Source: Actinomycetospora succinea
Lineage (GTDB): Bacteria; Actinomycetota; Actinomycetes; Mycobacteriales; Pseudonocardiaceae
Length of the DNA: 64,000 nt
NCBI RefSeq assembly: GCF_004363095.1
Contig: NZ_SNYO01000001.1
Coordinates: 496,001-560,000 of the forward strand
Direction: 5' to 3'
Part shown: one piece after another, positions 7,808 through 23,115 of the stretch
Numbering within the stretch: position 1 is the stretch's first letter
Layout: the number at the start of each line of letters is the position of its first letter
Made by a program: the position numbers and the translations under genes
The notes under the pieces: generated by a model
What the model saw: the letters and a program-made list of their open reading frames with translations, nothing else
Database searches by the model: none
Told to the model about the DNA's origin: nothing

Positions 7808-9007
7808 GTGAACGTGCTGCTGCTAAGGAACATCCACCCGGTCGCCACGGAAGCGCTGCGTGCCCGGGGCCACGAGGTCGACGTGCGGTCGGGCTCGATG
7901 AGTGGTGCCGAGCTGGCGGATGCGCTGGCGGGGGTGTCGTTGTTGGGGATCCGGTCGAACACCACGATCACCGAGGAGGTCCTCGACGCGGGCAAGGACC
8001 TGCTGGCGGTGGGCTGTTTCTGCATCGGCACCAACCAGGTCGACCTGCCCGCGGCCGCGGAGCGGGGGGTGGCGGTGTTCAACGCCCCGTTCTCCAACAC
8101 CCGCAGCGTGGTGGAGCTGGTGCTCGGGGAGATCATCGCGCTGGTGCGGCGGCTGCCGGAGAAGACCGCGCGGATGCACGAGGGCATCTGGGACAAGTCC
8201 GCGCGCGGTAGCCACGAGTTCCGCGGCCGCACGCTCGGGATCGTGGGGTACGGCAACATCGGTACCCAGCTGTCGAACATCGCCGAGGCGGTGGGGCTGC
8301 GGGTGATCTTCTTCGACACCCAGGACCGGTTGGCGCACGGCAACGCCCGCAAGGTGGAGTCGTTGGAGGCGTTGCTGGCCGAGGCCGATGTGGTGAGCCT
8401 GCACGTGGACGGCCGTCCGGGGAACGCGGGGTTGTTCGGCGCGGAGCAGTTCGCGCTGATGAAGCCGCGCTCGATCTTCATCAATGCCTCGCGGGGGATG
8501 GTGATCGACGACGAGGCGTTGCGGGAGAACATCCTGTCCGGGCATCTGGCGGGGGCGGCGATCGATGTGTTCCCGATCGAGCCGAAGGCGCAGGGCGATG
8601 TGTTCGAGTCGCCGTTGCGGGGGTTGGACAACGTGATCCTGACCCCGCACGTGGGGGGGTCGACCCAGGAGGCGCAGGAGGAGATCGGCGGGTTCGTGTC
8701 CACCAAGCTGCTGCAGTACGTGGGGACCGGGGTGACCGCGTTGTCGGTGAACCTGCCCGAGGTGGCGTTGCCGGTGGCGCCGAGTGCGTTCCGGATGGGG
8801 TATCTGCACACCAACACCCCCGGGGTGCTGGCCGGGATCAACCAGCTGCTGCTCGACAGCGGGGTCAACGTGGTGAGCCAGGCCCTCTCGACGCGGGGGG
8901 AGCGCGGCTACGTACTCACCGACACCGAAGCCGCCATCCCCGACGACGCCCTGGCCGAGCTGCGCCGCTCACCCCACACCGTGTCGCTGCGCACCTGGGG
9001 ACCCTGA
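7808..9007 (+). CDS. serA: D-3-phosphoglycerate dehydrogenase, E. coli type
   Basis: A 399-residue NAD-dependent 3-phosphoglycerate dehydrogenase, the first step of serine synthesis. It closely follows the short E. coli form: GCFCIGTNQVDL near residue 69, FNAPFSNTRSV near 91, the nucleotide-binding GYGNIG at 147-152, NASRGMVID, AAIDVFPIEP, LTPHVGGSTQEAQ and a C-terminal ACT domain from about residue 325 (HTNTPGVLAGIN) that in E. coli binds serine for feedback control. Most actinobacteria carry the long SerA with an extra domain, so this short form is notable. From about 7900 to 8880 the gene uses TTG, GGG and GTG codons much more than its neighbours, while the ends look native. The GTG at 7808 is the only sensible start. 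Confidence 0.93.
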   Translation: MNVLLLRNIHPVATEALRARGHEVDVRSGSMSGAELADALAGVSLLGIRSNTTITEEVLDAGKDLLAVGCFCIGTNQVDLPAAAERGVAVFNAPFSNTRSVVELVLGEIIALVRRLPEKTARMHEGIWDKSARGSHEFRGRTLGIVGYGNIGTQLSNIAEAVGLRVIFFDTQDRLAHGNARKVESLEALLAEADVVSLHVDGRPGNAGLFGAEQFALMKPRSIFINASRGMVIDDEALRENILSGHLAGAAIDVFPIEPKAQGDVFESPLRGLDNVILTPHVGGSTQEAQEEIGGFVSTKLLQYVGTGVTALSVNLPEVALPVAPSAFRMGYLHTNTPGVLAGINQLLLDSGVNVVSQALSTRGERGYVLTDTEAAIPDDALAELRRSPHTVSLRTWGP

Positions 9008-9032: not shown

Positions 9033-10688
9033 TCACTCGCCCTCGTCGGCCGCGTCCTGGCCCGTGTCGGGCTGGCCCGTGTCCTGCTGCTCGGACGCGT
9101 CCTCGCTGACGCTCGGCTGGTCGGCCTCGGCGGTGTCCTCCTCCACGACGGGGCCGTCGGGGGCGTCGCCCTCCTCGCTCGTCGCCGACGACGAGGCCGT
9201 GTCGGCGGCCGGGCCCTCGGCGAGCCCGGCGACCGCGAAGGCCCCGCCGACGACGGCCGCGAGCACGGCCGCGGCGACGAGGGCGGACAGCCACGGGCGG
9301 CCGGCGGGCCGGTCGGCGGCCGGGCGCGAGGCCGGGGCGACGACGTCGGTGAGCCTGCTGACCCCGGCCTCGAGGGGACCGCGACCGACGAAGCGCTGCC
9401 AGAGCAGGCCGACGAGCAGGGCGACCGTGATCTGGACGAGGTAGAGGGTCCACGGCTCGGCGGTCGGCGCGAGCCCGACGACCACGACGTGGAGCGTGTA
9501 GAAGGTCAGCGTCATCGCGCCGGCCGCGGCCAGCGGGCTGCGCACCGCGCCGACGACCCGCGCCCACGTCGCCGCACCCCCGTGGGCGAGCGCCCGGTCG
9601 AGGAGCAGCATCGCGCCGAGCACCGCGAGGGACGTCCCGACGGTGCGGGCGAGGTCGAGCGGGGTCGACGAGTGCGCGGTGTCGACGGCGAGCCACCACC
9701 AGGTGGTGGCCGGGGTGACGCCGTTCGGCCCTTCGGTGAGGGCGGCCTGCAGCTCCTCGGTGGGCAGGCCCGGGTTCGCGAGGATCTGGCCCAGACCGCC
9801 GGCCGTCACCAGCGCCAGGTGCGAGACGACCGCGGCGACGACGACGAGCAGGACGCCGCTGCCCGCGAGCACCGCGGCGGTGCGGGTGCGGGTGAGCGAG
9901 AGGCGCCCGACCGCGAGGCCCACGCAAAGGTAGGTCAGCCACGGCCAGATGGGGTAGGCGCCGGTGAAGAAGAGGGTGCCGACGAGGCCGGCCGGGTCGG
10001 TGACGAGCGCCGTGAACGAGGGGTCGATGAGCTCGGCGGGCGGCATCGAGGTGCGGACGAGGTGGCTCGTCACCGGGGCCACGACCGCGAGCGCCGCGCC
10101 GAGCGCGAACAGGCCACGGGTCGGGAGCAGGATCAGGGGGACGGCGAGCAGGAACAGCACGCCGTAGTACGTGAGGATGATGTCCACGTCGCCGAGCGCC
10201 GCCTCGCCCAGCGCCAGGCCCAGCACGCCGACCGCCAGCCCCCGCACGGCGAGGCGCAGCGCGTGGCTCCGGAACGACCCGCCGCGCAGGTCGACGCGCC
10301 GGCGCCCGGTGAGCAGCGCGACCGACAGCCCGACGAGGACACCGAACAGGGCCGCCGACGTCCCGCCGGCCAGGAGGCCGACGGTGGTGAGCTCGCCGTT
10401 CTCGGAGGTCGGCAGCGTGTGGACCGCGATCATGCCCAGGAGGGCGAGCCCGCGCGCCGCGTCGATCCCGCGCACCCGCGCGCCCGAGCCGCTCGTCGTC
10501 CTCGTCGGGCTCGCGCTCGTGACGACGGGCAGCCGGACGGTCGGCGCCTCGGCCAGGCCGGCTGTCCGGACCGCCACGGGCGGGGCCTGCCGGGGGAGAC
10601 GTGCCGTCATCCGTCGCGTCGCCACGGGAGGCGCCAGCGTCGTCGCCGGTCCCGAGTCACGGGGCGGTGCGGGGGTCCTGGTCGTCAT
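9033..10688 (-). CDS. DUF1624/heparan-alpha-glucosaminide N-acetyltransferase-like membrane protein
   Basis: A 551-residue polytopic membrane protein. After a 70-residue cytosolic lead comes RVRGIDAARGLALLGMIAVH, the start motif of DUF1624/heparan-alpha-glucosaminide N-acetyltransferase-like and DUF418 proteins, followed by about ten hydrophobic helices up to residue 480. Members are thought to move acyl groups across the membrane onto sugars or polymers. The last 70 residues are an acidic Ser/Glu/Asp/Gln-rich tail (repeats of DTGQ) after a final membrane helix. It is convergent with serA and divergent from the synthetase gene across a 309-bp promoter region, so it may be part of that cluster as an acyl-modifying enzyme, but that is uncertain. 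Confidence 0.8.
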   Translation of the reverse strand: MTTRTPAPPRDSGPATTLAPPVATRRMTARLPRQAPPVAVRTAGLAEAPTVRLPVVTSASPTRTTSGSGARVRGIDAARGLALLGMIAVHTLPTSENGELTTVGLLAGGTSAALFGVLVGLSVALLTGRRRVDLRGGSFRSHALRLAVRGLAVGVLGLALGEAALGDVDIILTYYGVLFLLAVPLILLPTRGLFALGAALAVVAPVTSHLVRTSMPPAELIDPSFTALVTDPAGLVGTLFFTGAYPIWPWLTYLCVGLAVGRLSLTRTRTAAVLAGSGVLLVVVAAVVSHLALVTAGGLGQILANPGLPTEELQAALTEGPNGVTPATTWWWLAVDTAHSSTPLDLARTVGTSLAVLGAMLLLDRALAHGGAATWARVVGAVRSPLAAAGAMTLTFYTLHVVVVGLAPTAEPWTLYLVQITVALLVGLLWQRFVGRGPLEAGVSRLTDVVAPASRPAADRPAGRPWLSALVAAAVLAAVVGGAFAVAGLAEGPAADTASSSATSEEGDAPDGPVVEEDTAEADQPSVSEDASEQQDTGQPDTGQDAADEGE

Positions 10689-10997: not shown

Positions 10998-13900
10998 ATG
11001 GTTGCCGGCGCAGCGCACGGCACCGCCACGGCACCTCCCGTCCCGCCGCCGAACCGTCGCCGCTGGACCGGGTCCCGACGCCGGCCCGGTCCCGGCCTGG
11101 GCGCCGGACCGGCGCCCGCTCCCGCGGACGAGAGGATCGACCGGCTCGTCGAGCGGACGTGCGACGAGCTCCGCCGCCACGGACGGGCCACCGCCGCCGC
11201 CGTGGACACCGGCGACGGCCCGATGTCCTACGTCGCGCTCGAGACCGCGGCCGCGCGGCTGGCGCGCTACCTCCGGCGGCGCCGGATCGCGGCGGGCGAC
11301 CGCGTCGCGGTGCTGCTCGACCGTCCCGGCGACGCGCTCGTCGCGCAGCTCGCGACCGCCAGGATCGGTGCCGTCGCCGTCCCGCTCGACGCCCGGCTCC
11401 CCGACGCCGCCCTCGCGGCCGTGCTCGAGGCCGCCGGGGTCGGCATCGTGCTGACCCGCACCGACGAGGCGTCCCGGCTCGACGCGTCCGACGTCGACGC
11501 CGTCTACCTGGACCGCGCCCAGGCCCGGATCGACCAGGAGGACGCCCAGCGTCTCACCGACACCGAGCGCGGCTCGGTCGTCGGGACGCCCGCCTACGTC
11601 GTGGTCCACGCCGCCGACCGCTCCGCCGGGGCCCACGGCGGCCTGCGCTCCACGGCCGTCGGTCACGACGCCGCGGCCGCCTTCGTCCGCGGCGTGGCGG
11701 GCCTGCTCCAGATCGGGCCCGACGACCGGTTCCACCACGACACCCGCGCGGGGTCGGACCTCGCGGTGCTCGAGACGTGGCTCGCGTGGTCGTGCGGGGC
11801 CGCCGTGGTCACCGCGCCGCCGGGGCCGCCGCTGCGCGGCACCGCGCTCGGGCGCCACCTGCGGGACCGGCGCGTCACCGTCCTGCGCGCATCGGCCGAG
11901 GACCTCGAGGGCATCGAGGAGACGCTGCCCGACCTGCGACTGCTCCTGCTGACCGGCACCGGCCGACCGCGCGACCTCCTCGCCCGGTGGCACCGGCCCG
12001 GGCGCCGGATCGTCGGTCTGCACGGGGCCCCCGAGACCACGGTCGCCGCCCTGTGGACCGAGCTCCACCCGCAGCGACCGGCCACCCACGGGCGTCCGCT
12101 GCCCGGCTACGGCGTGCTCATCACCGACCCCGCCGACCCGCGGCGCGTCCTGCCCGCCGGGGGGATCGGCGAGATCGCCGTCACCGGCCCCGGCGTGGCG
12201 CGGGGCTACGTCGGGCGCCGGGACCTCACCGCGGAGGCGTTCGTCCCCGTGCCGGGGCGCGGCCCGGGTCTCATGTTCCGCACCGGCGACCTCGGCCGGA
12301 TCGCCCCCTCGGGCGAGGTCGAGCGCATCGCGCGGCTGGACGGGGCCGATGGTAGGGGGGAGCGGATCCCGCCGTCGGCGGCGCGGCCGTCGCCCCAGGC
12401 GGCGCCCGGGCGCTCGCGGCGCACGACCGTCATGGCCCTGCTGTCCACGCCCGTCGCCGACGACGACGCCGCACCGGCCGGGGACGCCGCACCGGTCGAG
12501 GAGGCTCCGCCCGCGCCGGTCGCGAGCGGGACCGGGACGACGGCGCCGCACCCCGCCTCGGAGGCACCGGAAGCACCGGACACGGCCGCCGGCACGACCG
12601 ACGGCACGGCCGAGGGCACCGCCGCGACGACCGCCGAGGACACCGCCGGCGGCACCACCGAGAAGGCACCCGACGACACCGCCGACGGCACGACCGGTGA
12701 GAAGGCCGGCGACACGACGACCGGGAAGACGACGCGGTACCCCGCTCCCGAGCCGCTGTCCGGGGTCGACGCCCCGACGACCGCCCTCCGGGCGACGCCG
12801 CCCGCGGCCGCGCCCCGGGCACCCCAGGCGCCCCCAGCGCCGGGCCGCCCGCCGGCCCCGCCCGGGCGGCGCCCCACGCCGCCCGGCCAGGCGCCCCCCG
12901 GGCTCGCGACGCCCGGCCGTGGCACGCCCGGTCCCGGGACACCCGCTCGGGGCACTCCTGGCCGTGGGATGCCGGGCCCCGGGACTCCCGGCCCCGCTAC
13001 CCCCGGGGCACGAGCACCCGGCGCGCTCCCGCACCGCGGTCCCCCCGTCCGGCCGGGCGCGCCCGGCCGCCCGGGTCCGATGGGGCCGGGACCCGCCGGA
13101 CCGGCCGCCCGGCCGCAGGCCCCAGGCCGCCCGGGGATGCCGCCGGCGCCGGCGCGGCCGTCCGGGATCGGGTCGCCCGCGGCACCGGTCGCGGCCGCTG
13201 CGTCCGCCGTCGCGGCTCCGCCCGCGGCACCCGGCGCCACCGAGGCGCTCCTGAAGGAGATCCTCGTCGAGGTCCTGGGCCGCCCCGACGTGCCGAGGGA
13301 CGGGAACTTCTTCGACGACCTCGGCGCCGACTCGCTCCTCATGGCCCGCTTCTGCGCGAAGATCCGCAAGCACCCCGACCTGCCGTCGGCGGCCATGCAG
13401 GACGTCTACCAGCACCCGACGCTCGCGGGGCTCGCCGGAGCCCTCGCGCCCGCCGCGAAGCCGAAGGACACCGCCGGGGCCGCGCGCACGACCTCCGGGC
13501 TCGGCGCCCTGCTCGCCGAGGTCCTGGAGCGGCCCGACGTCCCGCCCCAGGCGCACTTCTTCGACGACCTGGGTGCGGACTCCCTGCTCATGGCCCGCTT
13601 CTGCGCCCGCACCCGCAAGCGCTCCGACCTGCCGTCGGTCGGCATGCCCGACGTCTACAAGCACCCCACGATCGCGAGCCTGACCGCGGCCCTCGGCGCC
13701 GGCGACGACCGGCCGGCCGGACCCGCGGGACCACCGCCGACCGAGGCCGACGAGCCGACCGGTCCGCGCGCGGGCACGGCCGCGTTCGTGCTGTGCGGCG
13801 CCGCGCAGCTCGTCTGCGTCCTCGCCTACAGCTACATCGCCGCGGTCATCCTCACGTGGGGCTTCCGGGCGGTCACCGCGGCGACGGGGCTCGTCGAGGG

Positions 13901-15908
13901 GTACGTCGCCGCGCTCCTCGCCGGCGTCGCGGGGTTCGTCACCCTCAGCGTCCTGCCCGTCGTGGCGAAGTGGGTGCTCATCGGTCGCTGGAAGCCCGGG
14001 GCGTTCCGCGTCTGGAGCCCCGCCTACCTGCGGTTCTGGGTGGTCAAGACGCTGGTCCGCACCAGCCCGATGGTGCTGTTCACCGGCACCCCGGCGTTCA
14101 CGCTCTACCTGCGGGCGCTGGGGGCGAAGGTCGGGCGCGACGTCACCTACCTGTCGAGCCAGGTGCCGGTGTGCACGGACCTGTTCAGCATCGGTGATCG
14201 CAGTCTGGTGCGGAAGGAGGCCGTCATCGCCTGCTACCGGGCGCAAGACGGCCGCATCGAGATCGGCGGCGTCAGCATCGGCGCGGACGCCTTCGTCGGC
14301 GAGGCGACCGTGCTCGACGTGCGGACCGCCGTCGGCGACGGCGCCTCGCTGGCCCACAGCTCGTCGCTGCACGCCGGGCAGGCGATCCCCACCGGCGAGG
14401 TCTGGCACGGCTCGCCCGGGCGCCGCGCCGACGGCCCGCTGCCCGCGGTGCCGCCCGCTCCCGGCAGCCGCCCGCGCCGGGCGCTGTACTCGTCGGTGCT
14501 CCTCGTCTTCGTGCTCGCCGTGGCCTCGCCCGCGACGCTCGCGGTGGCCGGGGCGCTGTACTCCCTGGTGCCGCAGTTCGCCGCGCTGTTCGAGCCCGCG
14601 CCGGGGGTGATCTTCACGGCGCAGTTCCACCTCGAGCTGCTCGCGCTGACGGCGATCCTCTTCTTCGGCGGGCTCGTGCTCGGGCTGGCCGTGATCGTGA
14701 CGCTGCCGCGGCTGCTCGCGGTGTGGGTCCGCCCCGACGTCGTCTATCCGCTCTACGGCGTCCGCTACTGGCTGCACCGCTCGATCGGGACCATGACCAA
14801 CGCCCGGCCGTTCGTCGAGCTGTTCGGCGACAGCTCCGCGATCGCCCACTACCTCGTGCTCGTCGGCTACCGGCTCAAGCCCCTGCAACAGACGGGCTCG
14901 AACTTCGGCATGGCCGTCCAGCACGAGAACCCGTTCCTCACCAGCGTGGGGAGCGGCACCGTCGTCGCCGACGGCCTGTCGGTGATGAACGCCGAGTACT
15001 CCGCGACTTCGTTCCGCGTCTCGCGCACGGCGATCGGGGCGAACAACTTCCTCGGCAACCGCATCGCCTACCCGCCGCAGGGCCGCACCGGCGACGACTG
15101 CCTGCTGGCGACGAAGGTGCAGGTCCCGCTGCACGGACCGGTGCGCCAGGGTGTCGGCCTGCTCGGGTCACCGAGCTTCGAGATCCCGCGCACGGTCGCG
15201 CGCGACAGCGCCCTCGACGTCGCCGACCCGCAGGAACTGGCCGCGTCGCTGCGGCGCAAGAACCGGAACAACGCGGTCTCCATGGTCCTGCACCTGCTCG
15301 TGCGGTGGTTCTTCTTCTACCTGTCGCTCGTGACCGTGGCGGCGGTCGCGTCGCTGCCGATCGCGGCGGGCCCGGCCGAGGTCGTCCTCGCCGAGCTCGT
15401 CGGCATCGTCGTGCTGGTCGCCTGGTTCACGCTGGTGCAGCGCAGCGTCTCGCCGCTGAAGGCCCGGCGACCCGACGGCGCCTCCATCTACGACCCCGTC
15501 TTCTGGCGCCACGAGCGGTACTGGAAGGTGCCCGCCCCCCACTGGGTGCAGATGTTCAACGGGACGCCCTTCAAGCCGCTCGTCTGGCGCCTGCTCGGGG
15601 TGCACGTCGGCGCCCGGGTGTTCGACGACGGCGCCAACCTCACCGAGAAGGGCTTCACCACCATCGGCGACGACGCCACCCTCGGCGAGGGCTGCGTCAT
15701 CCAGTGCCACTCGCAGGAGGACGGCGGGTTCAAGTCGGACGACGTCGTCATCGGCGCCCGCGTGACGCTCGGCGTCTCGTCCTTCATCCACTACGGCACG
15801 ACGATCGGTGACGGCGCGATCCTGGCGCCCGACACCTTCCTCATGAAGGGCGAGGAGGTGCCGCCCGGGGAGATCTGGGGCGGCAACCCCGCCCGCGGCA
15901 TCGACTGA
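10998..15908 (+). CDS. Pls/PosA-type membrane non-ribosomal peptide synthetase with degenerate A domain and two carrier domains
   Basis: A 1636-residue protein with the layout of epsilon-poly-lysine synthetase (Pls) and PosA. Residues 35-450 resemble an adenylation domain, but the phosphate loop is decayed (AADRSAGAHGG near 205 instead of TSGSTGxPKG), and the A8 and A10 motifs are absent, so it is probably inactive. Residues 455-755 form a Pro/Gly/Ala/Thr-rich linker with repeated GTPGxG units. Two carrier domains follow, each with FFDDLGADSL (phosphopantetheine Ser near 779 and 863). From 925 on there are three pairs of membrane helices (about 927-985, 1160-1245, 1430-1480), each followed by a soluble domain with left-handed beta-helix hexapeptides, the tandem module that in Pls couples amino acids iteratively. 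The next gene supplies an intact adenylation domain. Product unknown; a homo-oligomer or polymer is inferred. Confidence 0.88.
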   Translation: MVAGAAHGTATAPPVPPPNRRRWTGSRRRPGPGLGAGPAPAPADERIDRLVERTCDELRRHGRATAAAVDTGDGPMSYVALETAAARLARYLRRRRIAAGDRVAVLLDRPGDALVAQLATARIGAVAVPLDARLPDAALAAVLEAAGVGIVLTRTDEASRLDASDVDAVYLDRAQARIDQEDAQRLTDTERGSVVGTPAYVVVHAADRSAGAHGGLRSTAVGHDAAAAFVRGVAGLLQIGPDDRFHHDTRAGSDLAVLETWLAWSCGAAVVTAPPGPPLRGTALGRHLRDRRVTVLRASAEDLEGIEETLPDLRLLLLTGTGRPRDLLARWHRPGRRIVGLHGAPETTVAALWTELHPQRPATHGRPLPGYGVLITDPADPRRVLPAGGIGEIAVTGPGVARGYVGRRDLTAEAFVPVPGRGPGLMFRTGDLGRIAPSGEVERIARLDGADGRGERIPPSAARPSPQAAPGRSRRTTVMALLSTPVADDDAAPAGDAAPVEEAPPAPVASGTGTTAPHPASEAPEAPDTAAGTTDGTAEGTAATTAEDTAGGTTEKAPDDTADGTTGEKAGDTTTGKTTRYPAPEPLSGVDAPTTALRATPPAAAPRAPQAPPAPGRPPAPPGRRPTPPGQAPPGLATPGRGTPGPGTPARGTPGRGMPGPGTPGPATPGARAPGALPHRGPPVRPGAPGRPGPMGPGPAGPAARPQAPGRPGMPPAPARPSGIGSPAAPVAAAASAVAAPPAAPGATEALLKEILVEVLGRPDVPRDGNFFDDLGADSLLMARFCAKIRKHPDLPSAAMQDVYQHPTLAGLAGALAPAAKPKDTAGAARTTSGLGALLAEVLERPDVPPQAHFFDDLGADSLLMARFCARTRKRSDLPSVGMPDVYKHPTIASLTAALGAGDDRPAGPAGPPPTEADEPTGPRAGTAAFVLCGAAQLVCVLAYSYIAAVILTWGFRAVTAATGLVEGYVAALLAGVAGFVTLSVLPVVAKWVLIGRWKPGAFRVWSPAYLRFWVVKTLVRTSPMVLFTGTPAFTLYLRALGAKVGRDVTYLSSQVPVCTDLFSIGDRSLVRKEAVIACYRAQDGRIEIGGVSIGADAFVGEATVLDVRTAVGDGASLAHSSSLHAGQAIPTGEVWHGSPGRRADGPLPAVPPAPGSRPRRALYSSVLLVFVLAVASPATLAVAGALYSLVPQFAALFEPAPGVIFTAQFHLELLALTAILFFGGLVLGLAVIVTLPRLLAVWVRPDVVYPLYGVRYWLHRSIGTMTNARPFVELFGDSSAIAHYLVLVGYRLKPLQQTGSNFGMAVQHENPFLTSVGSGTVVADGLSVMNAEYSATSFRVSRTAIGANNFLGNRIAYPPQGRTGDDCLLATKVQVPLHGPVRQGVGLLGSPSFEIPRTVARDSALDVADPQELAASLRRKNRNNAVSMVLHLLVRWFFFYLSLVTVAAVASLPIAAGPAEVVLAELVGIVVLVAWFTLVQRSVSPLKARRPDGASIYDPVFWRHERYWKVPAPHWVQMFNGTPFKPLVWRLLGVHVGARVFDDGANLTEKGFTTIGDDATLGEGCVIQCHSQEDGGFKSDDVVIGARVTLGVSSFIHYGTTIGDGAILAPDTFLMKGEEVPPGEIWGGNPARGID

Positions 15909-15929
15909 CCCGACCCCGAGGACGGACCC

Positions 15930-18563
15930 ATGACCAACCCCACCATCTGCGCGGTCCCCGACGACAGCCGGTGGCGCGACGTCCTCGCGAGCGGCGCCAC
16001 CGCCGTCCCGCGGTGGAGCTCCGCGGAGGCGCCGGTCGGCGGCGGGACCGTCACCACGGCGGTCGCCGTCCCCGCCGAGCTGGCCGCCGCGGTGTTCGCG
16101 CAGGCGGGCCGCCTCGGCGTCGTGCCGGACGCGCTGCTCCTCGCGGCGCACGCCCGCGTCCTCGCGGCGCTGACCGCGGAGCCCGAGGTCCTCGCCGGTG
16201 TCGAGGTCGCGGGCCGGACCCTGCCCTGTCGCCTCGAGACCGGCGTCGCGTCGTGGCGGGTGCTCGTCACGACCGCGTTCGGGGCCCTGACCGAGCTGCG
16301 GGCCACGGACCGCACCGAGGACGCCGCCCTGGCCCGGGCGCGCCGCGACCTCGCGGGTCTCTGGCCCGAGACCGTCCTGGCCCTCGACCCCGCGGACACC
16401 GCCGCCGAGACCGCCGCCGAGCCCTCCCTCGACGACGGCGTCGTGTTCCGCATCGACCGCCCGGCGGACGACCTGCTGCGGGTCGTGCACCGGCCGGGCG
16501 ACCTGGACGCCGCGGCCGCCGAGCGGATCGCCGGGTACCACCTCGCCGCCCTCGGGCAGCTCTGCGCCGACCCGGACGCGGCGCCGGACGCGGCGGGGCT
16601 GGTCGGCCCCGACGAGCTGGCCTTCCTCGTCGACGGCCTCGCGGGTCCGGTGCGCGAGCGTCCCGCGAAGCCCGCGCACGAGATCTTCCGCGACCGCGCC
16701 GCCGCCGACCCGGACCGCGTCGCCGTGGTGAACGGCGAGCGATCGTGGACCTACCGCGAGCTCGACGAGGTCACCGACCGCGTCGCGCGGGCGATCCTGG
16801 CCCGCGGCCTGCCGGCCGAGGGCATCGTCGCCGTGGTCGCCGAGCGGACCCTCGACTGGGCCGCCTCGGTGCTCGGCATCCTCAAGGCGGGCGCCGCGTA
16901 CCTGCCGCTCGAGCCCCACTTCCCGGCCGACCGCATCGCGACCGTGCTCACCCGCGCCGACGCCCGCCTCGTGCTGGGGGAGCGCGGCAGCACGGCCACG
17001 CTCGACGAGGCCCTGGCCGGCCTCGGCGCGGCGGCGCCCGAGCGCCTGCTCGTCGACGACGCGGTCGCCGAGGAGCACGGCGACGCCGTCCCCCGCGTCG
17101 ACATCGCGGGCGACCGGCTCGCCTACCTGTACTTCACCTCCGGCTCCACCGGCGAGCCCAAGGGCGCCATGTGCGAGCACGCGGGGATGGTGAACCACCT
17201 CTACGCCAAGATCGAGGACCTCGGGATCACCGAGGGCACGGTGGTCACCGAGACCGCCCCGCAGTGCTTCGACATCTCGCTGTGGCAGCTCGTGGCGCCC
17301 TGGCTCGTCGGCGCGACCACGGTGATCGTCGAGCAGGCGACGATCCTCGACGTGCCTGCGTTCGTGGAGCTCCTGGCCCGCCGCCGCGTCGAGGTCGCCC
17401 AGCTCGTGCCGTCCTACCTCGACGTCGTCGTGTCCTACCTCGAGCAGCAGGACGTCCCGGCGGCCGAGGTCCTGCCCGCGCTGCGGCGCATCGCGGTCAC
17501 CGGCGAGGCCGTCAAGAAGGAACTGGTCGCGCGCTGGTTCTCGGTGCGCCCCGACGTCGCGATGGTGAACGCGTACGGGCTCACCGAGACGTGCGACGAC
17601 ACCAACCACGAGATCCTCACCGAGGTGCCCGCCGGTGAGCGGGTGCCGCTCGGACCCGCCGTCCCCAACGTCCGCGTCTACGTCGTCGACGAGGCGCTGC
17701 ACCCGGTCCCGCTGGGCGCGCCGGGGGAGATCGTCTTCTCCGGGGTGTGCGTCGGGCGCGGGTACGTCAACGACCCCGACCGCACGGCGAAGGCGTTCGT
17801 GCCCGACCCGCTGCGCGCCGGGGAGCGGCTCTACCGCAGCGGCGACCACGGCCGGTGGCTGCCCAGTGGGAAGCTCGACTTCCTCGGGCGGCGCGACCAC
17901 CAGGTGAAGATCTCCGGGTTCCGCATCGAGATCGGCGAGGTCGAGAACACGCTGCTGCGGGCGCCCGGCGTGCGCGACGCCGCCGTCGTCGTCGCCGAGC
18001 GGCCGGGACGCGGCAAGCAGCTGGTCGGCTTCTACGGCGCCGCCGCGCCCGTGGAGAACGAGGTGCTCCGCGCGACCCTCGGCGCGTCGCTGCCCGGGTA
18101 CATGGTCCCGCCGGTGCTGCACCACCAGGAGGTCCTGCCGCTCACCCCGAACGGCAAGATCGACCGCAAGGCGCTCACGACCCTCGCCCTGGCCCTCGAC
18201 GAGCCCGAGACCGCCGCCGACGCGGACACCACCCCGCTCAGCCCGACCGAGGAGCGCGTGGCGGCCGTGTGGGCGCCCCTGCTGGGCGTCGACGTGTCGG
18301 CGATCGGCCGGGACACCCACTTCTTCGACCGGGGCGGCTCCTCGCTGCTCGCGGTGAAGATGGCGGTCGGCCTGAAGAAGGTCGTGAGCCTGCCCGACAT
18401 CGTGGGCCACCCCGTGCTCGCCGACCTCGCCGCGCTCATCGACAGCAAGGCTGAGGTCCCGGCACAGGCGCCCGCGCCCGCCGCCGCACCTGCCGCCGCC
18501 GCACCCGCGGAGGAGGCGCCGACGGTGCGCTTCCGCCCCTCCGACCTCACGCCCTCGACGTGA
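15930..18563 (+). CDS. Stand-alone NRPS adenylation-carrier protein (A-PCP)
   Basis: An 877-residue protein starting 21 bases after the synthetase with a GAGG ribosome site. Residues 1-220 look like the remnant of a condensation domain without an HHxxxDG motif. Residues 235-755 are a full adenylation domain: YFTSGSTGEPKG at 401, FDISLW at 447-452, NAYGLTETCDD at 547-557, YRSGDHGRW, QVKISGFRIEIGEVE and NGKIDRKAL near 740. Residues 770-845 are a carrier domain with Ser805 in FFDRGGSSL. Aligning by the A4 and A5 motifs, the pocket begins Asp-Ile-Trp and has Asp556-Asp557 at the positions equal to GrsA 330-331; these acidic residues would suit a basic amino acid, but this reading is by eye. It most likely loads the neighbouring synthetase, whose own A domain is decayed. 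An Ala/Pro tail ends the protein. Confidence 0.92.
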   Translation: MTNPTICAVPDDSRWRDVLASGATAVPRWSSAEAPVGGGTVTTAVAVPAELAAAVFAQAGRLGVVPDALLLAAHARVLAALTAEPEVLAGVEVAGRTLPCRLETGVASWRVLVTTAFGALTELRATDRTEDAALARARRDLAGLWPETVLALDPADTAAETAAEPSLDDGVVFRIDRPADDLLRVVHRPGDLDAAAAERIAGYHLAALGQLCADPDAAPDAAGLVGPDELAFLVDGLAGPVRERPAKPAHEIFRDRAAADPDRVAVVNGERSWTYRELDEVTDRVARAILARGLPAEGIVAVVAERTLDWAASVLGILKAGAAYLPLEPHFPADRIATVLTRADARLVLGERGSTATLDEALAGLGAAAPERLLVDDAVAEEHGDAVPRVDIAGDRLAYLYFTSGSTGEPKGAMCEHAGMVNHLYAKIEDLGITEGTVVTETAPQCFDISLWQLVAPWLVGATTVIVEQATILDVPAFVELLARRRVEVAQLVPSYLDVVVSYLEQQDVPAAEVLPALRRIAVTGEAVKKELVARWFSVRPDVAMVNAYGLTETCDDTNHEILTEVPAGERVPLGPAVPNVRVYVVDEALHPVPLGAPGEIVFSGVCVGRGYVNDPDRTAKAFVPDPLRAGERLYRSGDHGRWLPSGKLDFLGRRDHQVKISGFRIEIGEVENTLLRAPGVRDAAVVVAERPGRGKQLVGFYGAAAPVENEVLRATLGASLPGYMVPPVLHHQEVLPLTPNGKIDRKALTTLALALDEPETAADADTTPLSPTEERVAAVWAPLLGVDVSAIGRDTHFFDRGGSSLLAVKMAVGLKKVVSLPDIVGHPVLADLAALIDSKAEVPAQAPAPAAAPAAAAPAEEAPTVRFRPSDLTPST

Positions 18564-18594
18564 CGCGAGCGGTACGGGGGAGGTGCCGGCGGGG

Positions 18595-19200
18595 TCAGGT
18601 CAGCTCGGCGGGGGTGACCGCCCCCCGCTGCAGCGCCGCGTTGGCGAGCTCGACGCGACGGCGGGTGCTCGTCGGGTCCAGCTCGAACTTGTCGTAGAGG
18701 CGCAGGAGGTGCTGCTTGACCGCGGCCTCGGAGACGACGAGCTCCGCGGCGACGGCACGGGCCGTCGCCGGCTCGGTGAACACCGCGCCCGAGAACAACG
18801 GCCGGCACAGCGCCACGAGGACGTCGCGCTCACGGCGCGTGAGCTCCGGCGCCTTCCGCGGCGCCTTGGTGGGTGCCGCGCGGCTCGCGGCGCCCCGGAA
18901 CACCAGCCGGGTCGCACCGACGTGGATCGCGTCGCCGTGACGCAGGGCGCGCTCGGCGATGAGGCGCTCGCCCGCCACGACGGTCCCGTTGGTGCTGCCG
19001 AGGTCGCGGATCGCCCAGCCCGCCCCGTAGGACTGCAGCACGGCGTGCAGCGAGGAGACCTGGCCGTCGTGGTCGAGGACGATCCCGTTGCCCTCCTCGC
19101 GCCCGATCGTCATCGACGGGCCGGCGAGCAGGACCACCTCGACCCCGCCGGGTCGCCACACCTCGAGGAAGCTCGTCGGGCGACCCGCGTCGCTGGTCAT
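18595..19200 (-). CDS. FHA-domain transcriptional regulator with C-terminal HTH
   Basis: A 201-residue protein. Residues 10-103 form a forkhead-associated domain with the phosphothreonine-binding residues in place: Arg34 in IGREEGN, Ser50 and His52 in VSSLH, and Asn71 in DLGSTNGT. Residues 117-180 (ELTRRERDVLVALC to AAVKQHLLRLYDKF) resemble a winged or LuxR-like helix-turn-helix. The ATG at 19200 has a strong GAGGAGG site at 19207-19213 on this strand; an earlier in-frame start at 19260 is less likely. It is divergent from a Ser/Thr kinase and convergent with the A-PCP gene, so a kinase-FHA switch controlling the peptide cluster is likely. This resembles the idea of EmbR-PknH, although EmbR has a different domain order. 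Confidence 0.85.
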   Translation of the reverse strand: MTSDAGRPTSFLEVWRPGGVEVVLLAGPSMTIGREEGNGIVLDHDGQVSSLHAVLQSYGAGWAIRDLGSTNGTVVAGERLIAERALRHGDAIHVGATRLVFRGAASRAAPTKAPRKAPELTRRERDVLVALCRPLFSGAVFTEPATARAVAAELVVSEAAVKQHLLRLYDKFELDPTSTRRRVELANAALQRGAVTPAELT

Positions 19201-19361
19201 GCGTCGCCTCCTCGGACGGGTCCGCGGCGTCGCCGCCGGCACGCCGACGACGGTCACCAACGGTCACATTCGAGTGAGAGTACGCCGTTCGGTGTATCAC
19301 GTTCGAGGGTGCGTGCGACATAGTGTCAGCAGCGTCGACCGGTCGGAGGGGGGTGTCCGGG

Positions 19362-20894
19362 GTGGCCGAACGGTTCGGGCCCTATGAGTTACTCCGCGTG
19401 GTCGGTCGCGGCGGAATGGGTGAGGTCTTCGAGGCCCACGACACCGAGCACGACCGGGTCGTCGCCCTCAAGCGCCTCACCGCCGAGGGCGCCGGCGACG
19501 AGGAGTACCAGCGGCGCTTCCGCCGCGAGGCCCGGCTCGTCGCGCGCCTGAGCAGCCCGCACGTCATCCCGATCCACTCGTACGGCGAGATCGACGGGCA
19601 GCTCTTCCTCGACATGCGGCTCGTCGGGGGCGCCGACCTCGAGCGGATCCTCGCCACCGAGGGGCGGCTCCCGCCCGCGCGCGCGGTGGCGATCGTCGAG
19701 CAGGTCGCGTCCGCGCTGGACGCCGCCCACCACGCGGGCCTGGTGCACCGCGACGTGAAGCCGTCGAACGTCCTCGTCGACGACGCGGTCGGCGCCAACG
19801 AGTTCGCCTACCTCGTCGACTTCGGGATCACCCGCTCCATGGTGGGCGACGACAGCGCGCCCCTCACCGGGACCCGCGTCCTGATCGGGAGCATGGACTA
19901 CATGGCGCCCGAGCGGTTCTCGGGCACGGGCGGGCACGGGATCGACGTCTACGCGCTGGCGTGCCTCCTGTACGAGTGCCTGACCGGGACCCGGCCGTTC
20001 CCGATCGACGACTTCACCGAGCTCATGACCGCGCACCTGTACACGGCCCCGCCCGCGCCGTCGCGCTCGGTGCCCGGCCTGGACGAGGCCTTCGACGCGG
20101 TCGTCGCCTCGGGCCTGGCCAAGGACCCCGAGCAGCGGCCCGCGAGCGCGGGGGCCCTCGCCGCCGCGGCCCGGGCGGCGCTCGACGCGGACACCGGGGC
20201 GAAGGTGCCGTCGACCCCGACGACGGCGCAGTGGGAGCGCCCCGTCCTCGAGCCCGGAGCCGGAGCGCCCCGCCGCGGCGGCACCGAGAGGTCGTCGGCC
20301 TCCTCGCCGGCCTCGTCATCGGGAGCCTCGTCACCGGTCGACGCGCCCACGACGGCCGTGCGGTCCACGACCGCCGCCGGGACCGCTGCCTCCGGCGCCG
20401 CGTCCCGCGCCGCGGCCGACGTCACCGACGCCCTGCGGCCCGGGGCGCGGTCGGCGCCGGCGGGCGCGGCGCACGGCCCGCGGCCCCAGGGCCCCGCCGG
20501 CCCACCCCGGGCGTCGCTGCAGGCCATGCGCCAGGCCCGGACCCCCGGGCCGCCGGCGCGGGGGACCGGGACCGGGATGCGGCCCCCGACGGGCGGGGTG
20601 ACCGACGGGCCCCGGCGCCCCGGCGCGCCACCGGCCAGGACACAGACCCGCGAGGGGGCGGGCGGGTCGGGCTACTACCCGCGGCCCGGCGCGGAGCCGG
20701 CCCCCACGACCCGTCCGGCGCCGACGGTCGGGCGCGAGCCCGAGCCGCTCGCGCCGCCGGAGACGACGGAGCCGGACGCCGGGCGTGGCACCGGCCGGAA
20801 GGCGCTGTGGATCGCCCTGGTGGTCCTCGGCACCGCGCTGGCGGTCGCGGCCGCCGTGTACGTCGCCGTGCTCCTCACGCCGGCGGCGGGCTGA
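19362..20894 (+). CDS. Membrane-anchored serine/threonine protein kinase
   Basis: A Hanks-type kinase of 510 residues. The catalytic domain (about 1-270) has GRGGMGEVF at 15-23, Lys37 in VALKRL, HRDVKPSN with Asp131, DFGI, and MAPERFSG. A 200-residue Pro/Ala/Gly-rich linker leads to one membrane helix (about 481-503) and almost no outside part, so it lacks PASTA or other sensor domains. GTG 19362 lies 12 bases after GGAGG (19345-19349); GTG 19353 and GTG 19323 are in-frame alternatives. It is encoded next to and opposite an FHA regulator, its most likely substrate. It precedes the SbnA-like gene by 176 bases with a candidate operator between, so it may be outside that transcript. Confidence 0.9.
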   Translation: MAERFGPYELLRVVGRGGMGEVFEAHDTEHDRVVALKRLTAEGAGDEEYQRRFRREARLVARLSSPHVIPIHSYGEIDGQLFLDMRLVGGADLERILATEGRLPPARAVAIVEQVASALDAAHHAGLVHRDVKPSNVLVDDAVGANEFAYLVDFGITRSMVGDDSAPLTGTRVLIGSMDYMAPERFSGTGGHGIDVYALACLLYECLTGTRPFPIDDFTELMTAHLYTAPPAPSRSVPGLDEAFDAVVASGLAKDPEQRPASAGALAAAARAALDADTGAKVPSTPTTAQWERPVLEPGAGAPRRGGTERSSASSPASSSGASSPVDAPTTAVRSTTAAGTAASGAASRAAADVTDALRPGARSAPAGAAHGPRPQGPAGPPRASLQAMRQARTPGPPARGTGTGMRPPTGGVTDGPRRPGAPPARTQTREGAGGSGYYPRPGAEPAPTTRPAPTVGREPEPLAPPETTEPDAGRGTGRKALWIALVVLGTALAVAAAVYVAVLLTPAAG

Positions 20895-20938
20895 CGGGAG
20901 GGCCGGGCGGTGGACCACGACGCGATCTCTCGCACGCC

Positions 20939-20957
20939 CTCACCAGAAGGTGAGAAG
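20939..20957. promoter_or_regulatory. CTCACC-N4-GGTGAG dyad, candidate cluster operator (copy 2)
   Basis: CTCACC-AGAA-GGTGAG is a perfect 6-bp dyad followed by AAG, 114 bases before the SbnA-like start. Read on the other strand it begins CTTCTCACC like the copy at 10796-10814. The promoter here is otherwise GC-rich with no clear -10. Confidence 0.45.
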
Positions 20958-21070
20958 ACCCTGACCCCGCGGGCCGGGAAGGCTGGCCCGGCGGCGATGT
21001 CGGCGCGGGGCGCGGGCGAGGACTCTCGTGGTGTCACCGAGACGACGACAGCGAAACCGAGGAGGTCGCC

Positions 21071-22078
21071 ATGACCATCATCTCCGCCCCTCAGCAGTAC
21101 AACACCGACGACCTCTTCATCGACCTGCGGGCGATCGTCGAGCACAACCTCTTCCTCAAGGTCGAGGGCATGAACTTCGCGGGCTCCGTGAAACTGAAGG
21201 CGGCCGCCTCGATGATCGCGGCCGCCCAGCAGCAGGGCCTGCTCAACCCCTGGTCGATCGTGGTCGAGTCGTCGTCGGGGAACCTCGGCGTGGCGCTGGC
21301 GATGGTCTGCGCGAACCACGGCTACCGCTTCATCTGCGTCACCGACGACCGCTGCAACATCCAGACCCGCCGGCTCATCGAGGCCTTCGGCGGCGAGGTC
21401 CACGTCGTCGACGTGCCGCACCCGCAGACCGGCCTGCTCGGCGCCCGCCTCGAGCACCTCGCCTCGATCTGCGCGAAGAACCCCGACGCCGTCTGGCTCA
21501 ACCAGTACGAGAACCCGGCCAACGCGGGCGCCCACTACGCCCAGACCGGCCCGGCGATCGCCCACACCTTCCCCCACGTCGACATCGTGTTCGTGGGGGC
21601 GGGCACCTGCGGGACGCTCATGGGCACCGCCCGCTGGTTCAAGCAGCACCGCCCGGACGTCAAGATCGTCGCGGTCGACGTCGAGGGCTCGGTGAGCTTC
21701 GGCGGCCAGGCCGGCACCCGCCGCATCCCCGGCCTGGGCATGGGCATGACGCCGCCCGCGCTCGACCGCTCGATGGTCGACGACGTCGTCATGGTCCCCG
21801 AGACCGAGACCCTGCGGATGTGCCAGCGCCTCGCGATGCGCGGGTTCCTCTTCGGCGGGTCCACCGGCACCGTCGTCGCGGGGGCGTCCTCCTGGCTGTC
21901 CGAGCACGGCCGGCCCGGCATGACCGCCGTGACCCTGGCGCCCGACTCCGGCGAGCGGTACCTCGAGACCGTCTACGCCCCGCTCTGGCGCGAGGAGCAC
22001 TACGGCGCCATGGCCCGCCTGACCGGCCGTCACATCCTGCCCGAGAAGCTGCCCGCCCCGCCGGCGTCCAGCGCCTGA
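21071..22078 (+). CDS. SbnA-like PLP-dependent synthase (2,3-diaminopropionate pathway type)
   Basis: A 335-residue fold-type II PLP enzyme of the cysteine synthase superfamily. It is most like SbnA, which joins O-phosphoserine and glutamate to N-(2-amino-2-carboxyethyl)-glutamate, the precursor of 2,3-diaminopropionate. Shared features are LKVEGMNFAGSVKLK with the PLP Lys41, ESSSGNLGVALAM, WLNQYENPAN, VAVDVEGSVSFGG, PGLGMGMTPPALDRS, FGGSTGTVVAG and PDSGERYLETVYAPLW. The strong AGGAGGT site at 21060-21066 fixes the ATG. The normal partner SbnB (an ornithine cyclodeaminase-like dehydrogenase) is not in the window; an Fe/2-oxoglutarate oxygenase follows instead. With a Pls-type synthetase upstream, it probably makes the monomer. 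A plain cysteine synthase is unlikely because NPxxSxKDR is changed to NFAGSVKLK. Confidence 0.85.
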   Translation: MTIISAPQQYNTDDLFIDLRAIVEHNLFLKVEGMNFAGSVKLKAAASMIAAAQQQGLLNPWSIVVESSSGNLGVALAMVCANHGYRFICVTDDRCNIQTRRLIEAFGGEVHVVDVPHPQTGLLGARLEHLASICAKNPDAVWLNQYENPANAGAHYAQTGPAIAHTFPHVDIVFVGAGTCGTLMGTARWFKQHRPDVKIVAVDVEGSVSFGGQAGTRRIPGLGMGMTPPALDRSMVDDVVMVPETETLRMCQRLAMRGFLFGGSTGTVVAGASSWLSEHGRPGMTAVTLAPDSGERYLETVYAPLWREEHYGAMARLTGRHILPEKLPAPPASSA

Positions 22079-22131
22079 TCCGTCGACCCCGCCTCACCCG
22101 ACCCGACAGCCCTAGCCCGACCGGAGACACC

Positions 22132-23115
22132 ATGTCGTCCACGATGCAGCAGCCCGCCGCCGGCAACCTCGACCTCCGGCCCGGCCACCCGCCGATCCTG
22201 TGGGTGAACCCCGGCCCCGATGCGGTCGGCTGGGCGGCGTACCACCGCAACGACGTGCGCCAGATCGTGGCCCGCCACGGCTCGGTGCTCATCCGGGGGC
22301 TCGGCGTGCGCGACCACGCGCAGACGGCCGCCGTGTTCGGCCGTCTCGCGGCGGTCGGCCTCCTGGCCGAGCGCGAGGCGTTCGCCGCCCGCACGGCGCT
22401 CGGGAACGGCCTGTACTCGGCCACCCCGTGGCCGGCGACCCAGCAGATGTGCCTGCACAACGAGCTGAGCTACCTGCCCGACCCGCCGGCCTTCATGTTC
22501 TTCGCGTGCCTCACCCCGGCCGCCGCCGGGGGTGCCACCCCGGTCGGCGACGCCGCGGCGGTCCTCCAGGCGCTGCCCCCGGCACTCGTGCAGCGGCTCG
22601 ACCACGAGGGCTGGATGCTCGTCCGCAACTACAACGACGAGATCGGCGCGTCGTGGGCGGAGGCCTTCGGCACGAACGATCGCGGCGCGGTCGAGCACTA
22701 CTGCCGCACCCAGGGCATCGAGTTCAGCTGGAACGGCGACGGCCTGAGCACCCGCCAGCGCCGCCGCGCCGTCGTGCGCCACCCCGTCGACGGACGGCCC
22801 TGCTGGTTCAACCAGGTCGCGTTCCTCAACGAGTGGACGCTCGACCCCGACATCCGCGAGTACCTCGTCGAGTCCTACGGCCCCGACGGGCTGCCGTTCA
22901 CCACGCGCTTCGGCAACGGCGAGCCGATCGGCGAGGACGTCGTGAACCTGATCAACAACGCCTACACCGCGCACACGGTCACCGAGCCCTGGCAGGCGGG
23001 CGACGTCATGGTCGTCGACAACATCCGCACGGCCCACGGCCGCGAGCCGTACCAGGGCGACCGCGAGGTCGTCGTCGGGATGGCCGACGCGATCCGGCTC
23101 GACGGTCGCCCGTAA
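22132..23115 (+). CDS. TauD/TfdA-family Fe(II)/2-oxoglutarate oxygenase (SyrP-like)
   Basis: A 327-residue non-haem iron oxygenase. His109 and Glu111 of LHNELSY and the distal His302 of RTAHGREPY make the metal triad, and Arg311 is placed to bind 2-oxoglutarate. The segments MFFACLTPAAAGGATPVGD and VRNYNDEIG are typical of the SyrP/clavaminate-synthase-like branch of TauD proteins, which often hydroxylate amino acids in peptide clusters. The ATG follows GGAGAC and lies 53 bases after the SbnA-like gene, so the two are one operon. It could hydroxylate the carrier-bound amino acid, or replace SbnB by oxidatively cleaving the SbnA product; both are inference. Confidence 0.87.
   Translation: MSSTMQQPAAGNLDLRPGHPPILWVNPGPDAVGWAAYHRNDVRQIVARHGSVLIRGLGVRDHAQTAAVFGRLAAVGLLAEREAFAARTALGNGLYSATPWPATQQMCLHNELSYLPDPPAFMFFACLTPAAAGGATPVGDAAAVLQALPPALVQRLDHEGWMLVRNYNDEIGASWAEAFGTNDRGAVEHYCRTQGIEFSWNGDGLSTRQRRRAVVRHPVDGRPCWFNQVAFLNEWTLDPDIREYLVESYGPDGLPFTTRFGNGEPIGEDVVNLINNAYTAHTVTEPWQAGDVMVVDNIRTAHGREPYQGDREVVVGMADAIRLDGRP

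Follow-up and report, generated by a model that had tools for sequence, protein, structure and literature searches.

The Pls-type polymerases described in PMC4668381 and PMC10522769 load their monomer in their own chain, as far as these sources describe them. One of them is PDAPs, the poly(L-diaminopropionic acid) synthetase of Streptomyces albulus PD-1, reported together with NjxA and NjxB (PMC4668381), and poly-2,3-diaminopropionate (poly-Dap) is accordingly already known as a product. Here we analyze a locus of Actinomycetospora succinea that appears to encode a split version of such a machine: a Pls-type synthetase with a degenerate adenylation (A) domain, P0001, is followed by an intact stand-alone protein that combines an A domain with a peptidyl carrier protein (PCP) domain, denoted A-PCP or P0002, and, farther downstream, by an SbnA-type pyridoxal phosphate enzyme and a TauD-type Fe/2-oxoglutarate oxygenase. 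The locus lies within a stretch of 64,000 nucleotides (contig NZ_SNYO01000001.1 of assembly GCF_004363095.1, positions 496,001 to 560,000 of the forward strand), hereafter the window (Table 1). Its protein P0005 shows 98% identity to a protein of A. lutea, in line with the genus assignment.

As described in PMC4668381, PDAPs shares with P0001 a condensing domain of the Pls type that contains soluble domains in tandem, and its Dap is provided by cysteine-synthase-like and ornithine-cyclodeaminase-like enzymes; however, its A domain, PCP and condensing domain are located in one chain, and the Dap genes are encoded apart. The window-type set, by comparison, combines predicted in-trans loading with linked Dap genes and an oxygenase (the trees considered below do not include PDAPs). 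The PosA (delta-poly-L-ornithine) and epsilon-poly-L-lysine synthetases have a terminal domain of the same family as P0001 but, according to the description in PMC10522769, load in cis and show a different pocket signature. The SbnA/SbnB pair of staphyloferrin B biosynthesis is represented by an SbnA above the curated cut-off in the window and by SbnB proteins above it in relatives, with the difference that here these enzymes are linked to a polymer-type synthetase and that the window strain has no SbnB above the cut-off. Oxygenases of the Fe/2-oxoglutarate type also function beside carrier proteins in the SyrP and dapdiamide systems, the latter of which uses Dap as well. To our knowledge, neither of these systems includes a Pls-type condensing domain. 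Finally, Dap is given as the precursor of alanosine in S. alanosinicus (PMC11705231). The respective cluster (L038; compared loci are designated by L numbers) encodes SbnA, SbnB and an A domain that has 7 of 9 pocket positions in common with the window A-PCP, but no PlsC, i.e., membrane condensing domain, or related oxygenase in the stretch compared, and Dap is channeled there into a small molecule; the gene that follows the A domain resembles, by eye, the acyl-CoA dehydrogenase described for alanosine in PMC11705231. Among the literature matches listed, which come mostly from open-access literature, no title or abstract describes the present gene set. Genome-mining papers, to the extent that they cover such synthetases, file them under the class NAPAA, so that single copies may already be flagged.

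The split synthetase and its conserved partners

The C-terminal part of P0001 (amino acids 933-1632) matches TIGR02353 ("Pls/PosA family NRPS", i.e., nonribosomal peptide synthetase) with 658 bits against a cut-off of 423. Past residue 900, hydropathy peaks form three clusters (924-996, 1161-1245 and 1426-1482) that correspond to approximately six segments in the membrane. Three stretches of soluble character, ~150-180 amino acids each, lie between or after the clusters, as delineated from hydropathy only, with overlapping peaks merged by eye. The first-pass annotation of the window, made from the sequence alone, had predicted a Pls/PosA-type synthetase with six helices and three soluble domains, and this description stands. 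The A domain encoded in cis is recognized by the Pfam AMP-binding model (126 bits, above the cut-off) and, among solved structures, matches the A domains of the PosA and epsilon-poly-L-lysine synthetases (8g95, 136 bits; 7wew, 102 bits) but reaches only 206 bits against the amino-acid-adenylation model, under the cut-off of 317 bits. Compared with intact A domains, it has lost A3 (the P-loop), A8 and the lysine of A10, i.e., by these motifs P0001 does not possess the functional same-chain A domain typical of Pls/PosA synthetases. Given that its own A domain is degenerate, loading is expected to occur in trans. In the same motif check, P0002 was found to keep A3, A8 and the A10 lysine, in agreement with the annotated intact A-PCP; its N-terminal stretch resembles a partial condensation domain, a match seen only below the cut-off and in the orthologue from L152. 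The pairing of a degenerate in-cis A domain with an intact separate A-PCP is strong sequence evidence that P0001 is part of a discontinuous Pls-type machine, as the first reading of this DNA had also proposed.

Relatives of the locus were reached via SbnA, via the oxygenase and via the polymerase domain. By the oxygenase route, 37 of 394 genomes of the class match at E <= 1e-60, and 20 of the 43 places listed were taken, leaving out one place at 51% identity; by the polymerase route, 302 of 390 genomes of the family are over the cut-off, and 26 places, picked by open-frame length or first look, were taken among the matches listed. After repeats were dropped, there were 58 distinct split-type PlsC loci, including the window, whose polymerase domain has 45% identity or more with that of the window or of L031; some genomes contribute more than one of these.

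Of the 58 loci, 45 encode the full complement of A-PCP, oxygenase, SbnA and SbnB, and 51 encode the oxygenase. The 13 incomplete loci are the window itself, which has no SbnB, six loci at contig ends, four partnerless loci with no cis A domain and two partnerless loci that have one. The 26 loci of the polymerase route include 17 complete ones, 3 at contig ends and 6 that have none of the four partners. A similarity grouping of the open frames from 24 loci gave, among its 25 largest groups, the five families of this set as the recurring ones, the remaining large groups being mostly antisense to them. The conserved set consists of PCP-PlsC, A-PCP, oxygenase, SbnB and SbnA, and these five genes co-occur more often than expected by chance. 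The first-pass annotation had named missing co-conservation in relatives as a ground for dropping its prediction, and this ground does not apply: its Pls-type synthetase, A-PCP, SbnA-like synthase and Fe/2-oxoglutarate oxygenase are all retained; the FHA/kinase pair drops out, and sbnB takes its place. In one locus, tandem PlsC genes are encoded in a single operon (L235:13280-19585).

The catalytic residues of the oxygenase (H109-x-E111...H302 and R311) are invariant among 44 sequences. The enzyme adjoins the A-PCP and has an intact triad, a combination that makes it a candidate for the SyrP-like type, which would act on a carrier-bound amino acid. SbnA 5d87 is the nearest solved relative of the window SbnA by sequence. 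In L025, L026 and L027, the SbnA open frame is ~100 residues longer upstream (of position 10001), either a fusion or a chance frame.

The A-PCP pocket and the origin of the split polymerase

Pocket positions were assigned approximately, by motif mapping in nominal GrsA numbering; the rows come from alignments of 300 residues or more, with L001-L016, L095-L149 and L190-L213 set aside, and L033 and L163 contribute two rows apiece. The pocket of the A-PCP is DIWQ(A/S)TADD in 46 rows, with one further row partly read. The A domains encoded at other SbnA/SbnB loci, including that of S. alanosinicus, account for 25 rows in which DIWE or DVWE is followed by (L/I/V/M)TADD, and three further A domains have different codes. 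The window A-PCP departs from DIWELTADD only at positions 278 (Q, not E) and 299 (A), in this nominal numbering. A pocket-code survey, in the part that bears on these substrates, describes the Dap and 2,4-diaminobutyrate (Dab) codes as alike and gives DVWQMIGDDK for beta-OH-Dab (PMC12283262), which has D, W, Q, D and D in common with the window pocket. Together with SbnA in the window and SbnA plus SbnB in relatives, the resemblance to SbnA/SbnB-linked A domains makes a link between the A-PCP set and Dap likely, and this part of the original prediction is upheld.

The cis A domains, intact or decayed, are informative with regard to ancestry. As described in PMC10522769, pocket position 2 is Phe in poly-Dap and poly-Dab synthetases and Ala in poly-Lys synthetases, whereas Glu at position 3 is conserved. 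All 22 single-chain relatives tested, drawn from the 30 best-scoring loci of the family, have the P-loop and the D-A-E signature, so that their pockets are poly-Lys-like. The in-cis P-loop motif is absent from 56 of the 58 split-type loci, and the relic A domains outside Actinomycetospora show D-F-E in 6 of the 7 readable cases; the relic pocket of the window (SDLAVLETW) is too decayed to be placed against this signature. The proposition that split PlsC proteins invariably lack a cis A domain was overturned by L229 and L233, in which this domain is intact, likewise with D-F-E, and no trans A-PCP is found nearby. The decay of the relics is graded, from replacement of the P-loop lysine (L175, L188) to absence of the entire A domain (L031, from Streptomyces fulvoviolaceus, and others). 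In a quick tree, made before L229 and L233 were added, a single branch parts the split from the single-chain rows; in a FastTree with these two loci, both fall inside the split clade, which is poorly resolved. We infer, with the reservation that the tree is weakly resolved, that a synthetase of the poly-Dap/Dab type probably lost its loader, perhaps repeatedly, once a Dap-type A-PCP had assumed this role. The graded decay also suggests that the loading domain of an NRPS was lost following takeover by an outside loader.

Proposed pathway and competing explanations

Starting from the split design, the degenerate A domain, the conserved set and the intact catalytic motifs of the oxygenase, all of which are evident from sequence, we propose that the locus represents a split poly-Dap/poly-Dab branch of the Pls-type synthetases in which Dap is oxidized on a stand-alone carrier and then joined, a scheme that we hold to be about equally likely to be right or wrong. 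SbnA and SbnB would produce L-Dap, which the A-PCP would adenylate and hold as a thioester; the oxygenase, with 2-oxoglutarate, would oxidize the carrier-bound Dap; the modified monomer would be handed over in trans to the carrier domain(s) of the membrane protein with the dead A domain; and the three-part condensing domain would link the monomers, probably via the side-chain amine, to give an oligomer or polymer. The SbnA/SbnB pair of S. aureus is described as yielding 2-oxoglutarate alongside Dap (PMC4668381), and the 2-oxoglutarate of the SbnB pathway could feed the oxygenase. A more specific form of the proposal, to which we lend only tentative credence, is that actinobacterial split membrane synthetases polymerize oxidized Dap, such as beta-hydroxy-Dap in the form of a stable N-acyl hemiaminal, or dehydro-Dap, that the loader was moved off the synthetase so that the oxygenase acts first, and that the 2-oxoglutarate released by SbnB is consumed. 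A trans-fed polymerase could accept carrier-modified monomers and thus lead to new polycationic materials and antimicrobials; intact operons in Streptomyces make the idea directly testable.

Several observations weigh against this scheme. Free beta-hydroxy-Dap would be an unstable aminal, so the oxygenase may catalyze something else. The loss of sbnB from the window (see below) makes the Dap supply in this strain doubtful. Four PlsC loci (L180, L181, L186 and L237) have neither a cis A domain nor any partner nearby; the genomes that carry these solitary PCP-PlsC loci hold an A-PCP and SbnB elsewhere, the distant A-PCP being cut by a contig start in one of them. Furthermore, the A-PCP, oxygenase, SbnB and SbnA genes also occur without PlsC in the stretches of L029, L166, L167 and L168, so that a polymer is not a necessary outcome of their chemistry. 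As a group, these genes seem to be portable and to serve in making and oxidizing carrier-bound Dap. By eye, this group is adjoined by NRPS genes in L167 and by ketosynthase-like genes in L168. In L169, an oxygenase with 43% identity is encoded without SbnA, SbnB and PlsC.

The existence of the four-gene group without PlsC is compatible with a non-polymeric product: PlsC would join just one modified Dap unit, or a few of them, or couple them to another acceptor, with a thioesterase or acyltransferase finishing the molecule. A thioesterase-like C-terminal tail, which could signal editing or the release of a small molecule, is present in 14 of the 47 distinct A-PCPs (and is confirmed by Pfam in L152, the only tailed A-PCP scanned), and some operons are repeatedly accompanied by an HGSNAT-like acyltransferase gene. 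However, no such tail was seen on the other 33 A-PCPs, two of which are unreadable, and the characterized Pls-type enzymes, as described in PMC4668381 and PMC10522769, give homopolymers or oligomers; we consider this outcome unlikely. The same PlsC-less loci count against plain oligo- or poly-Dap, which a split enzyme might make as in S. albulus PD-1, with the oxygenase acting elsewhere, e.g., on the finished chain. Such a product has the precedent of a natural polymer from a Pls-type enzyme (PMC4668381, as far as described) and the D-F-E signature of the relic A domains in its favor, but the oxygenase is found in 51 of the 58 loci (the 45 complete ones include it by definition of the count), and its association with A-PCP, SbnB and SbnA in loci that lack PlsC links it to the monomer on the carrier; we regard plain poly-Dap as rather unlikely. 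It is improbable, in our estimate, that the A-PCP loads a different amino acid (e.g., Dab) for hydroxylation, with Dap as a second component. The similarity of its pocket to the beta-OH-Dab code, as given in PMC12283262, and Q at position 278, where the alanosine-type pocket has E (in nominal GrsA numbering), fit such a division of labor, and the latter also counts against our scheme. However, no A domain of the conserved set other than that of the A-PCP is intact by motif, and in 45 of the 58 loci it is found together with SbnA and SbnB.

Loss of sbnB and the genomic neighborhood

In relatives that share the window layout, sbnB is located between the A-PCP and FHA genes. At the corresponding site, L028 carries 1123 extra bases with a whole sbnB, whereas the window retains only a scar. 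The best SbnB match in the window genome scores 221.5 bits, under the cut-off of 326.9. Among 18 Actinomycetospora genomes, a close SbnA is encoded in 14 (E <= 1e-90) and an SbnB that exceeds the cut-off in 13; the window genome is the only one of these 14 that has this SbnA without such an SbnB. The deletion may be an assembly error. In comparison with L028, the ratios of nonsynonymous to synonymous substitution rates (dN/dS) amount to 0.09 (oxygenase), 0.12 (SbnA), 0.19 (A-PCP) and 0.26 (PlsC), so the retained genes look constrained; hence either the loss of sbnB is recent or Dap is supplied otherwise. The window strain may not form the product unaided. A pair on contig 9 (C9) of the same genome was considered as a backup but is a weak candidate, its SbnB-like member being below the cut-off and distant from SbnA; this SbnB-like type is present in 7 of the 18 genomes of the genus, one of them without the cluster SbnA.

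Table 1. Features of the window, of contig 9 of the same genome, and of compared loci
Feature	Position or loci	Strand	Evidence or remark
Phosphoglycerate dehydrogenase, SerA type	7808..9007	+	PRK11790 573 bits, cut-off 404
HGSNAT-like membrane acyltransferase	9033..10688	-	PF07786 45 bits, cut-off 22; divergent from Pls gene
Split-type Pls protein P0001	10998..15908	+	1636 aa; TIGR02353, two PP-binding stretches, A3/A8/A10 lost
Degenerate A domain of P0001	~11175-12209	+	A3, A8, A10 motifs lost
Two carrier domains of P0001	Ser779 at 13332; Ser862 at 13581	+	PP-binding
Membrane condensing domain PlsC of P0001	~13794-15893	+	TIGR02353
Stand-alone A-PCP P0002	15930..18563	+	AMP-binding 262 bits, AMP-binding_C, PP-binding; pocket DIWQATADD
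sbnB deletion scar	18564..18594	+	L028 comparison; likeness to last sbnB codons read by eye
FHA protein, helix-turn-helix (HTH)-like C-terminus (by eye only)	18595..19260	-	PF00498 59 bits; synteny
Ser/Thr protein kinase	19323..20894	+	PF00069 146 bits; one C-terminal hydrophobic segment; synteny
SbnA-type enzyme	21071..22078	+	TIGR03945 368.6 bits, cut-off 349.95
TauD-type Fe/2-oxoglutarate oxygenase	22132..23115	+	TauD 152 bits; H109-x-E111...H302, R311
Second SbnA over cut-off, own genome	C9:207066-207974		
SbnB-like protein below cut-off, own genome	C9:242131-243111		~35 kb from second SbnA
A-PCP orthologues with thioesterase-like tail	L152, L154, L156, L157, L159, L166, L174, L178, L179, L182, L183, L184, L187, L224		
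Contig-end loci among the incomplete	L161, L163, L178, L188, L231, L236		

The FHA-HTH/kinase switch of the first-pass annotation exists inasmuch as both genes are found where they had been placed, with the HTH seen by eye, but lies outside the conserved set: in the loci compared, the FHA gene is limited to part of the genus and the kinase to the genus, and the pair is unmatched in Streptomyces, Pseudonocardia and the other compared loci outside Actinomycetospora. A plus-strand gene at 18583-19323 was ruled out, the FHA gene being on the minus strand.

Upstream of P0001, the window has a SerA-type gene close to the operon, as do four congener loci (L215, L217, L218 and L022, adjoining the oxygenase in the last), and a phosphoglycerate-dehydrogenase-like gene, below its cut-off, adjoins SbnA in L029. 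The SerA-type enzyme is a possible supplier of O-phosphoserine and a putative member of the operon. The HGSNAT-like acyltransferase is a possible accessory of the operon: its gene lies beside it in the window, L215, L217 and L218, distant homologues adjoin the operon in L158, L160 and L175, and the window genome encodes two genes of the PF07786 family.

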